A stretch of DNA of 64,000 nucleotides from Lutjanus erythropterus (taxonomy: Eukaryota > Chordata > Actinopteri > Lutjaniformes > Lutjanidae). The DNA lies in contig CM034613.1 in NCBI GenBank assembly GCA_020091685.1, forward strand, positions 3,695,878 to 3,759,877, read 5' to 3'. A model generated the notes under the pieces. That model saw only the letters and a list, made by a program, of their open reading frames with translations. It did not search any database and had not been told where the DNA came from. This document shows positions 2,262 to 44,127 of the stretch, in pieces. The stretch's first letter is position 1. Each line of letters opens with the position of its first letter. Made by a program: the position numbers and the translations under genes.

Positions 2262-2656
2262 GAAAAGAGACTCTTTTTTTTAATTAAATTAATAGCCAAA
2301 TTATTTGAATTCAGCTTCTTAAATGTGAATATTTTCTGCTTTCTTTACTCCTCTCTGGCAGTAAACTGAACATCTTTGAGTTGTGGACAAAACAAGACAT
2401 TTGAGGACGTCATCTCGGACTTCATCTCGGAAACACTGATCGATATTTTCTGACATTTTATGGAGCAAACAGCTAATTGATTAGTGCAGAAAATGACTGA
2501 CAGATTGATAGATAATGAAAATTATCATCAAAAGAAAGACTTGAAAAATGGATCCAAACATGTGGAGCCATGTTTGGATCCATTTGTCAACTGAAAAGAC
2601 TGTGACAGGATTAACTGATAGATGAATCGAGAAAATAATCGTTAGTTCCAGCCCTA
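2262..2656 (+). mobile_element. family-1 hAT-type copy with a perfect internal hairpin
   Basis: It carries the family core at 2312-2410 (CAGCTTCTTAAATGTGAATA, then CAGTAAACTGAACATC and ACATTTGAGGACGTCATC) and the right end GTTAGTTCCAGCCCTA. The left end is eroded. At 2548-2562 and 2569-2583 are perfect 15-bp inverted arms (ATGGATCCAAACATG / CATGTTTGGATCCAT) with a 6-nt loop. This is the position that the minisatellite occupies in the copy at 13-1086. Confidence 0.8.
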
Positions 2657-4174
2657 TTCGTTTCTACCAGGAGACAGAATGACAGCTGAAAAAAATACCA
2701 GCTGACTTAGTGAGAGAAGATCCACTTTATTCCACTGATGCCTTTCAGCACAGAGGTGTCTGTTTTTTTGCTTTTTGTTCTTGTGACATTATCACAGAAA
2801 GAAACTGTGAGTAGACAATTTATCTTACTGTCAGAGACAAATGCAGTTCCTCCAACCAACCCAAAGTGTTTAATGAATTTTGCCAGTGAAGCAAGCAGAG
2901 GACACACACTGCATCAATAAAGGCACTGGACTCTCACAGAATACAAAGGTTAACTGATTTGTCAATATGCATGAACAATGTTGTCTTTGATTAAAGTTCA
3001 GGTATCAGGTAGTCAATCTCTTTCAATAGATCTCTTTTAAAGTGAGACCCTGATTAGATTCTAATAAGACTGAAGATTGTTCTTTACAAATGTCAGTATT
3101 TTTAGATTGAATTTGCCAAGAAAACGCATTTAAATTTCCAGATTATGCACGCAAATGTTCATATTCATTTTTTTCTGCATATAAAGACTGAGAAAACACA
3201 TATAGATGCAGAAACCTCAGTTTGACTGCATGCATTTTTGAAGATCATTGTCAGAGCGGATTCATATACTGATACAAATATTAATTATTAACAAAATGCA
3301 CTTCCATCCTCTCTCAGAGGCTGCAGATCCATAACCAGACATAACTGTGAGGGGATCCATGAGTGGAAAGTCATACACACTTAGAATGAAAAAATAATGT
3401 GAGCCTATATTCAGATACATGGTTTTAATGGTCATAGTAAGAACCCTATAGCTTATAGCTCACTGTATATGTCTGTAGCTTCACCTTTGACTTGAAATGA
3501 ATGAATTTATTCATCTGAAATGAAAAATAAATGTTTAAAAATACATATCTTTCTGCTTTATTGATTTGGAATAGGTTAGACCCAAGTCTTTAAGATGGTC
3601 AGAACATGAAAACTGAAGCTGTTATAGCTGAAGGTTATATAAAGAAAAAGTTTTTAAATTATATCAGCAGCATTACACATTACCAAAGCAAAGATTTCTT
3701 CAAATGTATCTTTTGTATTACATTAGGATACTTTTTGTATTCAATATTTTTTATTTTGCACAGTTGATGTGTCAATTCAACCCAGTGTCTTCTAGTGCAA
3801 GCTTGTTTTTAGTCTGCATTGCAAAAAAAAAAAAAGCCAGTATAATTCATAGAGTGCTGCAGGGATTAAGCATATTTGTAGGCTAACCCGTAAATTAGCG
3901 TCGCTCTATTTCCCTCCACCAAAAGCCAATGGGATTATTCCATTCCAGAATGCTATCATTATAGCTACAAAACTACACCGCAGTTGTATGACTTGTTGAT
4001 GATGTTTAGTGTTTTCAACAACCTCTGTAGCCTCATTTATCTGCCTGTTAGCAAACACCTTTTTTAAGATGCATTAAATCTTAAAGACTCACGAGTGAGG
4101 TATTCACTGATGTATTTTACATTGTTGACAAAAACTGAGAAATCTCTTACGCTTGTGTTAATCACAGACATTTT
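2657..4174. other. unassigned AT-rich intronic sequence
   Basis: No coding segment or recognised repeat. A short poly-A run lies at about 3823-3836. ORFs here are at most about 66 codons and have no recognisable domain. Confidence 0.4.
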
Positions 4175-4560
4175 ATAACCCAACCCGATGGTTTGTTACA
4201 CAGAACCATCTGGGAAATCGTCCATAGAAGCTGTTTGGAAAAGGGCAGGCACTTTCAAACAACACTTGGCATTTGAATGGATGAACCATCTGTCTGTCTT
4301 GTCTAACACAGGCTAACTGATGCTATCACAGTATCTATGCTAACCTGGTGAGGAGCCGCCATTGTTTGCTCAAGACGAGTCAGTTCCATGGACGCTTCTC
4401 ACTGTCGTCACACCTTAAACCACGCCCATAGCTGCCAGTAGCCCCTCCTGGAACGCTGATTGGCTACAACACTTTTGTTGAGGCCACAAACGGATAACTT
4501 AAAGTCTGGCAAGATGGATTTTCATATGACCTCGCAAATCCAGCTGCCTCGCAACGTAAC
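4175..4560 (+). repeat. interspersed repeat R4, longest copy
   Basis: The stretch from TTTGTTACACAGAACCATCT through TTTGGAAAAGGGCAGGCACT, GATGAACCATCT, GATGCTATCACAGTATCTAT and TTCCATGGACGCTTCTCACT to GCAAATCCAGCTGCCTCGCA recurs in shortened forms at 25080-25419, 37861-38064 and 56278-56480. No inverted ends, tRNA-like head or ORF were recognised, so the class is unknown. The four copies look like deletion derivatives of one longer element. Confidence 0.75.
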
Positions 4561-5428
4561 TTATTTCAGGCATCTAACCAAGAACACATTCGAAACACTT
4601 GAAGATGAGGGAAGCAGAGGCGCAAATATGCAAACTCATTTCCAGGTTTTAGAACGCATTCCTGCACTGCACATACCTTAAGAAAATATATACGCAGCAT
4701 TGTCTTTAATGTCAATGACTACACATGTATGTTTAGATTATTATTTGTATTTTACAATGTCTTGTAAGCCCAGTGAACTCAGTGAACTCTGGGACAGACG
4801 GGTGCAAGACAACATTCCAAACCACATTTATCATATGCAAACTCACTAACATGCCTCTGTATTTGAATTTGTTGGCACATTCTGCGCTCTGCACCTCACG
4901 CCCGCTGCTCTATTTTTAGCACTCAGGTGCTGTGAACGAGCGTGAATGTCAGGGTGCAAGGCTGTCTCTTTCACTTTGTTGAACAAGACGAGGATAAAGG
5001 CAGCACGGAGGCAAGAACTCAGCCAGCGGTGAGGCTTCACTGAGCCAATTAGCCACGCTGCCTAATGGACACGAAATGACATGGTGGGAAGTGACAAAGA
5101 GGGCGAAACTGAGACTAACATGATGCCTGTGACAGGGACTAGAGTCCCCGCTGCAGCATGAGCTCAGGGGTTAAAGCTCTGGAACGCGCTCATTTCATCG
5201 TGACAGAGGCGGCTTGGATTGATGGTTAGCAGTTACACGACACATCGGATTTTAATAAGCTGTTCAATTTCAAATCTGCTTCCAAGATCATAAAATACCT
5301 GAATTTGCTCCCATCCAATATCTTATCTCTCCCCCCTCACAAAGAGCAAGAACATACACCAAGGGCTATGACTAACAGTTGCTTTCATTATCACTTCATC
5401 TCTCTAGTATTATTTTTGTCTATAAAAT
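4561..5428. other. unassigned; candidate conserved block at about 5040-5240
   Basis: The stretch 5040-5240 is less AT-rich than its surroundings, not repetitive within the window, and contains CTCATTTCATCG and GGATTGATGG. It could be regulatory DNA, but nothing in the sequence proves it. Confidence 0.25.
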
Positions 5429-6430
5429 AGAGATGTTCCTAGTGACTAATTTCCCAAAAGTTTTCATTTCAACTAATCGACAAGTCTAATAGTAAGAAAA
5501 CACTGAAAAAGCATTTAAAATTGAGCACAATTTATTAACTAATAATGTTAAATGTTGTCAGAAGAAAATACCGCAAGTGTTAAGAGTCACTTGCAGTGGT
5601 TAATCACATTCTTCAGTGACTAAAATGTATCATAAATGTGGCTGAAATGTGTAACACTTTATGAACATTGTACATTAGCATCAGCATTATTGCTGTTTTA
5701 CGCTGTTTATGTGTACTGTACTATTGTGCATTGCTGTTCACATATTTTTACACATCTATGTCTATTTTTTCTATATTGTTGTATATAGTAGTGTAATGTG
5801 CATGCCTTTTCATATTTTTAAATACTCTCTTGTAGAATTTCTTTATGCTTATATACTGTATACTTGTACTCTTGAATGGGAGCAACTGAAATAAATTAAG
5901 TATTTCTGATTCAGATTTTGATTCATTATCCTTCAAAACAATGACGACAACTCAGTAAATTAAATTTTGCCCGGAGCTGACATTAGCAGCTAGCCTGACA
6001 GACAGTGTGGCTAACATTAGCCGAGCTAGCAGCAGCAGCAGCTGCTCTGCCTGCAGGTTAATGTCCGTGTCTGTGCTGAATGTGGTCACATGTTGCTCCA
6101 GTCGAGTGGTTGTATATCAGTTTATTCTGACACAGCCTACATTCATGCGCATTTTCATTTTCTTCATCAAAATACAGATGACCTGCGCTGTTTACGAGCC
6201 GTCATCGGTCCCACCGAGGCATTCGTGCTGCGTTAGAAGGGCTGCCATCTGCTAGACGGCAGCACCCAACTAGAGGTGGGTGGCTGCGTAACATCTTTGA
6301 GGCAACAGTTAACTGGCATTGTAGATGAATAAATGATTGATAAACAGTTTAACCAACTAGTATTTCTGGGGCCGGCTAGCATGGGTGGCCACGTTTAATC
6401 GTAGAGTCGGCTAGTCGTGCGCAACACCAC
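5429..6430. mobile_element. 1.0-kb non-autonomous hAT-like element with 8-bp target duplication
   Basis: TATAAAAT occurs at 5421-5428 and again at 6431-6438, directly abutting two imperfect inverted ends: GAGATGTTCCTAGTGACTA on the left, and GTGGTGTTGCGCACGACTA as the reverse complement of the right end. Subterminal CTAATCGACAAGTCTAATAG and CGGCTAGTCGTGCGC resemble the GACTA-rich ends of other hAT elements. No transposase ORF is present; the 82-codon ORF at 6007-6255 has no recognisable domain. An (AGC)n stretch lies at about 6028-6043. Confidence 0.7.
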
Positions 6431-6554
6431 TATAAAATGTTCAGAACCCAAAATGTTTTTTAAAAAATTGATCATTTTGTCCCAACAATAGCTCAAAACC
6501 CAAAGACTGATGAAGAGTTTGGCATGGATTGATTGAATGTTACTACTACTGACA

Positions 6555-6622
6555 AGAGTCCAGTACCAACCCTACTCGCCAAGGTGTCGGGTGGCTTCCA
6601 AAATGTACATGCCAAACCAAAA
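6555..6622 (+). repeat. short repeat shared with 10463-10530
   Basis: CCAACCCTACTCGCCAAGG followed by TGTCGGGTGGCTTCCAAAAT and GTACATGCC closely matches 10470-10530. It is a fragment of an interspersed repeat whose full extent is unclear. Confidence 0.6.
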
Positions 6623-8158
6623 CTCTACCCACATTTGGCTCTTGGAGAATGTTAATCTCAGGCCTGCTTGAACATCAGATAACATATGAAGTGCGCTCAT
6701 AAAAATAATCTGTTCTATTTCAGATTTTTATTTGATAGTAGATCGATTAACCTTTACTGGATCATCCAAATTCTAAAAGACTGCGAGCACAGATTAATCA
6801 TTACCATCCCTACAGACAATGATTGGGTTGTGTTTATTTACATGTCAGCAGGGAACACATCATTTGCTAGTTTCAGTGTTTTCCCTGAATAAAAAAAAGA
6901 CTCCATTAGTAATTCTACCAACAGTGAAAGGCTGATTGTACTGCGACTCTATGAATGTAGAGTAGGTGCTCCTGGAAAAAGCTCATTCCAGTTTCAGCGC
7001 ACAAAAAAGGTTAAAGACAAACAGCCCGGAGCCTGAGCTGATAGATGAAAAGATTAAAAAAGGGAAAGGACCCCCTGCGGGGATTCTCTGACGTGTCCGT
7101 GAGCTCGTCTCCTGATTGACATCTAAGAGATCTATCACCACGACGACCTTAATGGAATGAGGGCTTTCCCCGAGCTGGATGCTGCGCGAACGGAATAGTA
7201 ATGAGAGCAGCTCTACCTGCTATCTGACGGGAGACGGATCGGTTTCAGAAGGCGGGGGGAGTGTGTGTGGAAGTGTGTGAGCAGGTGAGTAATGAGAATC
7301 TCTGGTGACGACTCAATGCTGGGATCAATGAGTTTCCACTGTGTGTGTTCACTCTGTACTATAAACAGGTCTCAGAGGATTTCACAAACTGTTAATTATG
7401 TGAGGATGCTGTTGTTCTATACATCAGACCGGCATTATCTCATCGAGCACCAAGGCTGGGGCCTTTCTGAGGGAAAGAATTTCACATAATGAGAGAAAAG
7501 CTGCCGTGTAGCAAGTTGTAAAATAAATAAACATACAAATCCAGATCTCTGGTTCCTCATCCATCCTAGAAAGGAAAGAGATCCCAAAAGGAGAGCAGAA
7601 AGAATGTATGAGCCTTCAGAAAATGTGAGCTCTATATCTTTATACGAAAACTACTTTCTGTTTGAACTGTGTCAAGAATTACACGTTATTTCTCAATTTA
7701 ATACATAATTTTACAAGTCATGAAACTCGCAGTTTGTGGTAGGTTTGTCGTAGTTAAGTTTTGTGTGAAATCCACACCAACATCTTCGTCGCTTGTAACG
7801 TTGTCTTACTGGACAAATAACGTGTCATTTGTGGCACAATTCCAATGATTTGTCTCTCGTCATTGAGTAATATATTTTTCAGAGGTTAGGTCCCGTGGTG
7901 GTCCACTGGAAGTGGTCTATTTGATGGCAGATATGCACACAGAAACAAATGAACACTTAACTGTAGCAATAAATACTTATGGAATAATGTGGTTTTGCCT
8001 CGTGTGTTTTATAGTAATTCAACCAAGGTACCACTGAAGATGAGACCTGTCTGAATGAGTTTCCCTGGCTAAATAAAGATTAACAAGAATAATTATAATA
8101 ACAATTCACATTTCAAAGATTTAACTGTTCAAAATTTAGAAAGCAAAAGCTATAATTA
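6623..8158. other. unassigned; GC-richer block at about 7055-7275
   Basis: The block 7055-7275 is more GC-rich than the flanks, unique in the window, and includes CCTGATTGACATCTAAGAG and CCTTAATGGAATGAGGGC. It is a candidate conserved non-coding element. The rest is AT-rich with no recognised feature. Confidence 0.25.
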
Positions 8159-10947: not shown

Positions 10948-11007
10948 CGATGTTGGGATGCTTGAGCAGGCGGCAGATCCGGGCCTCTCGCTCCAACTTC
11001 TGGTGAT
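10948..11007 (-). CDS. camk2: camk2 exon (CaMKII kinase domain, coding exon 3)
   Basis: Read on the minus strand, a pyrimidine-rich tract ending in CTCCACAG precedes a 60-bp exon, which is followed by the donor GTAACT. With one base from the previous exon completing the first codon (G|AT), it reads [20 protein letters not shown] and ends one base into the next codon (valine, G|TN expected). This is the alphaC-helix region of the CaMKII kinase N-lobe. It contains the glutamate of EAR, which in protein kinases pairs with the ATP-binding lysine. CaMKII is a multimeric serine/threonine kinase activated by Ca2+/calmodulin. Exon length, phase and sequence match the third coding exon of vertebrate camk2 genes. 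All paralogues share this peptide, so a, b, d or g cannot be chosen. Neighbouring exons were not seen in the window, so both flanking introns are large. Confidence 0.93.
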
Positions 11008-41178: not shown

Positions 41179-41615
41179 TTAATATTCAGCTGAAATTCTG
41201 CCCCTCATGTGGAAAATATACCTTGGAAAGTGATGATGTCCATCCATCTTGCCCTCTATAAATAAATGGAAACGCTGAGGCTCTGTAGAGGACCTTTAAT
41301 TTGAAATGTGATCTAAAAGCTCTCTGAGGAACTACCTCTTCCTCCTCCAAACTCCCAGCTGTCATTTGTCCAGACTAGGGATGATAACAATTAATCGAAG
41401 ATCGACTAATTGGTCGTTAAGGATTTTCTCGATCACGTGAGACTTAATCGACTTATCAAAAAAAGAGATCAACAACGTATAACAGTCTCCTATTACATTC
41501 CACCAGCATGTTGTTTCGATGAGCCGCCAACAGAGGGCGGAATCAAACTATTTTATGTCAAAAAAGTGAGGCGGCCATCTTGGCATCTGACTCCGGACAG
41601 CGGCAACTCCGGAGA

Positions 41616-43526
41616 ATGAAGCGGACGAAGAGAAGTATTGTGTGGGACCATTTCCAACTGAGAGGAGAAAATGTCACCTGCAAACACTGTGATGCTGTGT
41701 TCAAATACAGCACAGCTACGACAGCAATGCTCTACCACTTAAACCACGTTCATTCGAGTGTGTTAGCTGGATCTTCATCTTCTCAGCAACAGCAGCCCAC
41801 TATCACCTCAGTGTTTGCCCGCAGGAGCTGCGACGCACAGCGGGCAGAAAAAATAACACAATCAGTATGTACGGTTATAGAAAAAGACATGATGCCCATC
41901 AGTATGGTTGACGGACAAGGATTTCGAGAATTGATGCACCTGCTTGAACCAGCGTACCAAATCCCATCACGCGGCACCATCACCTCACGCATCGAGAGTA
42001 GGTACAAGGATGCCAAGTTGGAGACGCTAGCACAGCTAGCTAGCGCCGCCACCAATGTTGCATTAACAACAGATAGCTGGACTGCCCTAACGACTGAGAA
42101 CTATGTGACCGTGACTTGTCACTACATCACTGTGGACTGGCGAGTCAACAGTGTGGTGCTGCTTACTAGAAGCTTGCCAGGCCGGCATACGGCAGACCAC
42201 CTCGCTGAAAAGTTAAAGGAAGCAGCAGATGAATGGGGGCTTGACGGCAAAGTGATAGCGTGTGTGCACGACAACGCGCGTAACATCACCGCCGCTAACG
42301 ACCCGCTAAGAGTGACCTGGTACTCTGTGGCTTGCTTCGCGCACACGCTTCAGCTCGCTATCAATGATGGATTTACAGTCTACCTCAAAAAAGTCATCTC
42401 CGCGGCTGGCAGGCTTGTCAGCCACTTTAACCACAGCACAGTCGCAACTAAAGCTCTGCAAGAAAAGCAACTGCAAATGGCACTGCCATTCCACCGGCTC
42501 ATCCAGTCCACCAAGACCAGGTGGAATTCGGTTTGCGACATGTTTGACCGTCTAGTTGAACAGAGGTGGGCCGTGGTTGCCGTCCTTTCCGACCGGACTG
42601 TCACGAACCTGGCAAGCGCTAAGGCGCTAGAGTTGAAAGAGGAATACTGGAGACTCATGGAGGACATGGCGCCAGTTTTAGCAGCGCTCAAGTGTGCAAC
42701 AACAGTGATGTCAACGGAGTCCAGTGTTTCCATCAGCAGCGTTTACCCCATCACATTTAGCCTCATCAATGGACATCTCGTGAGGAGAGAAGAAGACAGC
42801 GCACGAGTGGTGGAATTCAAGAAAAAAGTCCGCTCCTCTCTGATTGAGCGAATGATGGTAAGCCTAACATTACACTATAACATTACATCTCAATTTGGAT
42901 AGGCCTGTCTTTTAAGTATTTTTTTTTCTCATAAAACAAGCTATAGCTGATAATTGATTTTTACACATTTTTTATTTACAAAGATTCAGTCCGACCAATT
43001 GACGTCCCTCCCCCCCATGGTCGCAACGATGCTGGACCCTCGCCACAAGCATATGGGTTTTCTAACACCTGCGCAGCGGCTTCATGCAAAATCTAAGCTG
43101 GTTGAGCTCGGAGAGGCGACGGAGGTGCCCACCCCGAACCCATCGACCGAAGGTGACGCGCCAGAGAGAGACGCTCAGTCAGCAGCACCGGGAGCTGGAG
43201 CCGTGCGTCAGGCATCTGCGATGGCTCTACTTTTCGGGGACCAGTATTCAGCAGCTTCCGCCGATGTTAGCATGGACATGGAAGTTGAGAACTTTTTACG
43301 GGACATTCCCCCAACACTGGATACACAGCCGACAGACTGGTGGAAAGTCAACGCAGGGAGATTTCCCCGGCTGGCAAAGCTGGCACGCGAGTACCTTTGT
43401 ATACCCGCGACATCAGTACCATCTGAACGGGTGTTTTCAGCCGCTGGACTAATTGTGACCAGGCTGCGCTCCCGTCTGACGCCAGACCATGTCGACATGC
43501 TAATTTTTCTCAACAAGAACAAGTAG
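41616..43526 (+). CDS. hAT transposase with BED zinc finger (two exons, 594 aa)
   Basis: Exons 41616-42857 (414 codons) and 42984-43526 (180 codons plus stop) join in phase 0. hAT transposases bind element ends through an N-terminal zinc finger and cut and paste the DNA with an RNase H-like D-D-E centre. Visible parts: a BED finger with CKHC (Cys22, Cys25) and the histidines of HLNHVH (41, 44, 46); the TTDSW motif with Asp153; HDNARN with Asp219; CFAH (240-243); TRWNS (Trp303); and the C-terminal hAT dimerisation region with LCIPATSVPSERVFSAAG, where Glu562 is the likely third catalytic residue. The Asp-Asp spacing of 66 resembles that of Hermes (68). About 600 residues is normal for the family. 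ATG at 41616 is chosen because it has A at -3 and immediately precedes the BED finger; an in-frame upstream TTG at 41580 is unlikely. There are no frameshifts or internal stops in the spliced frame. Confidence 0.9.
42858..42983 (+). other. 126-bp phase-0 intron in the hAT transposase
   Basis: The donor ATG|GTAAGC and acceptor TTTTTTATTTACAAAG|ATT join two exons in frame. The intron contains an in-frame stop at 42900-42902 if retained, and a pyrimidine-rich stretch before the acceptor. Retention would add 14 residues and stop, losing the C-terminal third. Confidence 0.85.
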
Positions 43527-43539
43527 GCAAAAGATGGGA

Positions 43540-43915
43540 CACTGTGAGTCTGATGTGTTATTTTTCCTGTTGCAGTGTTATATTTGATTATTTTGAGCAT
43601 CTTGTTACATGACTACTGTGGAAGTTGCGGTGGAAATTAAACCTTGATTAAGGAAAAAAACGCATTTGTTATTGTTTAGGCAGATACTGGTACACTGAGC
43701 CTGTTTGTTATTTTCCTGTTGCAGTTTTACATTTGTTTGTTTAGCGAAGATTATTTTTATGATCGCGCATGTTGATATCCAATTACATGAGTTTTAATAT
43801 GCAGGCCTACAGCTTTATCTGTTTGATACACGCTGAAATACTGCCAGAGAATATGTTATATGTTGTTCTGGAAATAAAGCTTTGCTTGAGTAGAAAAAGC
43901 AGGTTTGGTATTGTT
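43540..43915 (+). repeat. imperfect tandem duplication in the transposase 3' UTR
   Basis: TTATTTTTCCTGTTGCAGTG (about 43559) and TTATTTTCCTGTTGCAGTTT (about 43709) begin two similar blocks. The blocks close with GGAAATTAAACCTTGATTAA (about 43632) and GGAAATAAAGCTTTGCTTGA (about 43870), each followed by TTGTTATTGTTTAGG- or TTGGTATTGTTTGTTA-like sequence. The second copy is about 80 bp longer. Confidence 0.7.
43873..43878 (+). terminator. poly-A signal AATAAA of the transposase transcript
   Basis: AATAAA lies about 350 bp after the stop codon and inside the right end of the element. The first duplicate block has ATTAAA at about 43637, a weaker alternative signal. Confidence 0.6.
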
Positions 43916-44127
43916 TGTTATAGGAGTGAGTTTCCACGTGTTTTTTAATTACAGTTAATCGAGAATTGATCGGTAATGTTATCAATGATCGAGGAAGGAA
44001 AGTGCTTGCAATTTGCATCCCTAGTCCAGACCACTCTCGCCCTGGAGGGCTTTTTGACAGATGTATGACTGAGAGAAAACAAAAGCAGGAGAGGATATAA
44101 TCCAGAGTGGTTGAGAGCATGGAGGAG

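Follow-up and report, generated by a model that had tools for sequence, protein, structure and literature searches.

Evidence for a structurally complete, recently transposed Ac-like hAT element in Lutjanus erythropterus

Structure of the element

We analysed a stretch of 64,000 nucleotides (the window) from contig CM034613.1 of Lutjanus erythropterus, called C23 below. At window positions 41376-44023 of the plus strand it contains a complete hAT element of 2,648 bp, and the gene in whose intron the element lies is very probably a fish camk2 gene. We consider it very probable that this is a structurally complete, autonomous, Ac-like hAT cut-and-paste transposon that moved very recently in the fish lineage. 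An earlier reading of the window (the sequence-only reading) had described an apparently intact, young and possibly active hAT transposon at this place.

The element is bordered by an exact target duplication, GTCCAGAC, at 41368-41375 and 44024-44031. All 8 bases agree between the two flanks (8/8), and for one given placement the chance of such agreement is about 1.5e-5 (4^-8, calculated by hand). Short terminal inverted repeats were located by an end scan: TAGGGATG occupies 41376-41383 on the plus strand, and the same repeat lies on the minus strand at 44016-44023, where the plus strand reads CATCCCTA. The terminal repeat consensus of hATs starts with [C/T]A..G, and both ends of the element agree with it. 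When the whole window was scanned for end pairs with five end-like 8-mers, the pair at 41376 and 44023 was the only one facing inward within 6 kb. Both the duplication and the matching ends agree with what the sequence-only reading had reported.

A short motif is repeated near the ends. ATCGA is the most end-concentrated pentamer of the element, with 7 of its 9 sites within the outer 2 x 150 bp (P 7e-6, or about 0.002 after correction by hand for the best of 330 pentamers tested). Five ATCGA/TCGAT motifs, which may be binding sites of the BED finger, lie in the left subterminal region (41376-41525, plus strand), and two ATCGA motifs in the right one (43874-44023, plus strand). Retention of the motif in related copies is uneven: the left-end stretches matched have 0-5 sites, and in those from the right end the number runs from 0 to 4 and is most frequently zero. 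We therefore treat ATCGA as a candidate BED-finger binding site. A candidate poly(A) signal, AATAAA, is recognised by sequence match only at 43873-43878 on the plus strand.

Transposase gene

The coding sequence, join(41616..42857, 42984..43526), opens with a start codon and encodes 594 aa with no internal stops. Exon 1 (41616-42857, plus strand, 414 aa) carries the BED finger, D153, D219, C240/H243 and W303. Exon 2 (42984-43526, plus strand, 180 aa and the stop) carries the hAT dimerisation region and E562. The BED finger and the C-terminal dimerisation motif, both named in the sequence-only reading, were recovered as Pfam matches to zf-BED (PF02892, E 3.8e-8) and to Dimer_Tnp_hAT (PF05699, E 1.3e-22), the latter toward the C-terminus. 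Its three catalytic candidates, Asp153, Asp219 and Glu562, are indeed D, D and E and align with D180, D248 and E572 of Hermes. The window transposase thus has the DDE triad, the BED-type finger and the C-terminal dimerisation region of a hAT protein. The fold prediction was made for a 66% identical relative of the window transposase, and in the fold alignment to Hermes the cod relative is 21% identical.

Residue conservation was assessed by aligning the window transposase with 19 chosen relatives. C22, C25, H41 and H46 of the BED finger are conserved, with R at 22 in one relative. In this alignment the window protein showed no lone departure from invariant columns, and 9 of its residues depart from a 90% consensus built from the relatives. 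The description of the element as intact and autonomous-looking in the sequence-only reading is supported.

The two exons are separated by a 126-bp intron (42858-42983, plus strand) with GT-AG borders; the earlier reading had described a clean intron here. An alternative acceptor 6 bases downstream (exon start 42990) would give a 592 aa product. The donor position is the same in the relatives P0010, P0026, P0027 and P0028. Of these, the last three end 2-4 residues past it, and P0010 reads past the donor into residues that resemble the letters of the window intron. A sister element on C2 has an exon 1 that ends soon after this donor position and an exon 2 that is open again further on. Because the donor position recurs in these relatives and in the sister element, the intron looks like a feature of the family.

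Second copy and time of transposition

The sequence-only reading had proposed a search of the assembly for near-identical copies. We searched the 937.6 Mb of the genome (444 contigs) and scored the best 40 of 430 candidates, so that the counts of copies are lower bounds. One further full-length copy was found, at G000:C1:20860692-20863339; it is 100% identical over element positions 1-2648, with 0 differences. The C1 copy is bordered on both sides by its own exact duplication, GTGCAGAG (8/8), and comparison of 2 kb on each side revealed no similarity between its flanks and those of the window copy at E 1e-3. A search with exon 1 gave the same picture: only the C23 and C1 copies were 100% identical among the 102 matches listed (best 101 of 628 candidates).

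Two separate insertions that differ at 0 sites mean that transposition was very recent. From 0 differences in 2,648 sites, the 95% upper limit of the divergence between the copies is about 0.11% (rule of three). With an assumed rate of 1e-8 changes per site and generation, the two copies separated less than about 57,000 generations ago. The claim that the element is young was thus borne out by the copy on C1.

The inter-copy identity of exactly 100% could also be expected if the assembly had copied the element to a second place, or if polishing had homogenised diverged copies. We regard such an artefact as highly unlikely. Since the C1 and window copies differ in flanks and duplications, a duplicated contig is improbable, and an assembler would hardly invent different flanks together with a perfect 8-bp duplication. 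In addition, older relatives in the same assembly retain their differences.

Older copies and a sister element

The older family members that we fetched are deleted, truncated or broken. L010 ends 60 bases short, and its exon 1 is spread over two reading frames and has one stop. Stops also occur in L011, L012 and L013, each of which is truncated or has an internal deletion. L014 (1,380 bp) and L015 (1,235 bp) are internally deleted and retain exact duplications, GTAGATAA (read in the element's orientation) and ATATGAAT, respectively. At element positions 1902-2588, a 3' stretch common to the copies, the divergence from the element is 5.9% for L010, 7.9% for L014 and 7.5% for L015; these three, the nearest of the older members fetched, differ from one another by 5.9-6.6%. 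L012 diverges by 9.6%, over fewer sites than the other three. The observed/expected CpG ratio is 0.84 in the element, 0.42 in the remaining window and 0.62-0.97 in four older copies.

In L010, L014 and L015, 114 bases replace 4 at element positions 2242-2245. The extra stretch belongs to the 3' untranslated part, lies between an imperfect pair of repeats of the element (2149-2218 and 2302-2367) and is absent from the young pair. Because the three older copies share these bases and the pair lacks them, the C23 and C1 copies look like a lineage of their own, not the unaltered parent of the older copies.

A further group (L017 and L022-L028) resembles the element at the ends only, at about 71-77% identity. 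Apparently, these are an old miniature (MITE) family. One of them, L025 (about 375 bp), retains the exact duplication GCACCTGT.

At G000:C2:113266-116132 (L059, positions 2390-5256, minus strand) lies a 2,867-bp hAT element that seems complete and represents a sister family. It has 12-bp perfect ends, TAGGGATGGGCA, the exact duplication ATTTACAT and open exons 1 and 2. It is possible to suppose that the window element is a passenger, moved in trans by a transposase from elsewhere such as this one, which also looks complete and has TAGGGATG in common with the window element at its ends. We consider this very unlikely. The C2 transposase is just 67% identical to that of the window in exon 1, the left ends diverge after 8 bp, and the window element encodes an open transposase of its own.

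Relatives and classification

Protein comparison placed the transposase among fish proteins named ZBED1-like, or 'zinc finger BED domain-containing protein 1-like'. Among the 120 matches listed, the nearest full-length relatives are 65-66% identical (cod P0001, wrasse P0002, loach P0003 and cyprinid P0004). They can be aligned over the whole protein, and their catalytic and finger residues equal those of the window protein. At 65-66% identity, the full-length relatives listed do not represent the same element. The highest identity was that of P0010 (80% over 72%), and no near-identical protein was present among the matches listed. By this comparison the element is classed as a new member of the Ac-like hATs, related to the fish ZBED1-like proteins. 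The names of the relatives, together with the place of ZBED1 in the Ac family as given in PMC3606216, point to the Ac placement. These results also suggest that some fish proteins named 'E3 SUMO-protein ligase ZBED1-like' are transposases of mobile elements, not host ligases.

The same names raise the question of whether a domesticated host ZBED gene was misread as a transposon. Several homologues are called ZBED1-like or similar, ZBED genes retain the DDE motif, and ZBED1 itself has a single BED finger and a DDE motif, according to PMC3606216. Such a gene would be expected to have neither transposon ends nor recent duplicates. The window locus, in contrast to ZBED1 host genes, is mobile: it has an exact target duplication and repeats at both ends, a copy without any difference stands at an unrelated site, and deleted derivatives carry the same ends. 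Domestication is extremely unlikely; in our view the second insertion, which has a duplication of its own, already refutes it.

Like the window element, as it appears, Tol2 and Tgf2 are autonomous fish hATs, a likeness drawn here from their descriptions. Tgf2 has a BED-type finger and produces 8-bp duplications, as described in PMC4890040. According to the same source it is 4,720 bp long with a 686-aa transposase, compared with 2,648 bp and 594 aa for the window element.

Two other records among the relatives deserve mention. In the turtle record P0030 (calcyclin-binding protein isoform X2), a whole hAT transposase follows the protein's own domains; either two gene models were fused or a transposon was exonised. 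The sea louse (Caligus rogercresseyi) record P0097 holds a transposase 53% identical over 70% of the query, which may reflect contamination or horizontal transfer.

Target pattern and proposed mechanism

The pattern nTnnnnAn is tied in PMC8961557 to the Ac family, as opposed to Buster and Tip. We counted duplications with at least 7 of 8 bases matching and left out L017, L022, L024 and L027, four copies in which both ends were read and whose flanks agree below 7/8. The pattern fits five of the seven duplications read, those of the window, C1, L014, L015 and the sister element L059; both young copies therefore have the Ac-family target pattern.

Hermes of the house fly, whose structure is solved, prefers an 8-bp nTnnnnAn target, and its BED fingers bind short subterminal repeats (PMC10368747). 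The ends and the repeat motif of Hermes are unlike those of the window element. By analogy with Hermes biochemistry, the BED fingers of the window transposase would bind short repeats near the ends, for which ATCGA is the candidate, and a transposase multimer would cut both ends of the element. The flanking DNA would close as hairpins, and the freed element would then be joined to its target across an 8-base stagger that has T as its second base and A as its seventh. The step from one copy to two may reflect transposition around replication, or else the gap left at the donor site may have been repaired from the sister chromatid.

Present activity

Present activity of the window element is plausible. 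We lean slightly towards the view that a hAT, kin to the ZBED1-like proteins, is active today in the living fish population and that its insertions are still polymorphic. It is also possible, with a somewhat lower probability, that the family was recently active and is now silent, shut down by the host (methylation, small RNAs) or by a subtle missense change. Silencing would leave the same anatomy and the same recent move and would differ in present activity only. It is consistent with the 9 departures from the 90% consensus, with the finding of just two identical copies among the matches listed and with the statement in PMC4890040 that most vertebrate hATs are inactive. The lack of lone departures from invariant columns argues against silencing, as does the high CpG ratio, which suggests that the element has not undergone long methylation in the germline.

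Several points weigh against the main reading of a complete, autonomous element that moved very recently. Activity today is inferred from the DNA, and the predicted fold belongs to the 66% identical relative, not to the window protein. The perfect inverted-repeat match of the window element is limited to 8 bp. The fit to nTnnnnAn is incomplete: L016 fits one of the two positions and L025 neither. Two 100% copies among the matches listed imply few recent events, and assembly polishing or gene conversion could in principle raise the identity between them. Finally, the CpG ratio of the older L015 (0.97) exceeds that of the element, so this ratio alone cannot date the copies.

Active hATs are rare in vertebrates according to PMC4890040. 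With two insertions that are identical and have target duplications of their own, the window element is a concrete, directly testable candidate for one. If it is active, it would join Tol2, Tgf2 and the few other vertebrate hATs known to be active as a natural element of short length (2.65 kb). Tol2 and Tgf2 are both used for gene transfer.

Host gene and surroundings of the element

The location in a camk2 intron, also proposed by the sequence-only reading, was supported by the flanking exons 2 and 3. By protein match, the coding part of exon 3 (19 residues) lies at 10949-11005 and that of exon 4 (19 residues) at 1167-1223, both on the minus strand. The 64,000-nt window gave no match to exons 1 and 2. 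Exon 2 lies about 0.8 kb past the window end, at C23:3760667-3760768 on the minus strand; there are seven camk2-like exon-2 matches across the genome, and this number and the fish origin of the protein relatives fit a teleost. Intron 2 (about 54 kb) thus holds the element, which is oriented against the gene; exon 3 is about 30 kb away from it and exon 2 about 21 kb (calculated by hand). An antisense element within so large an intron is presumably tolerated through splicing out.

The sequence-only reading had also described heavily eroded hAT relics around the element. One of them was confirmed and the others were not. This relic is decayed and lies on the minus strand at window positions 6812-6049. 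A pattern search of positions 4001-6900 gave no right end for it. Its left end, TAGGGATGGTAATGATTAATC, is at 6812, and part of a BED finger remains at 6192-6049; these two pieces probably belong together.
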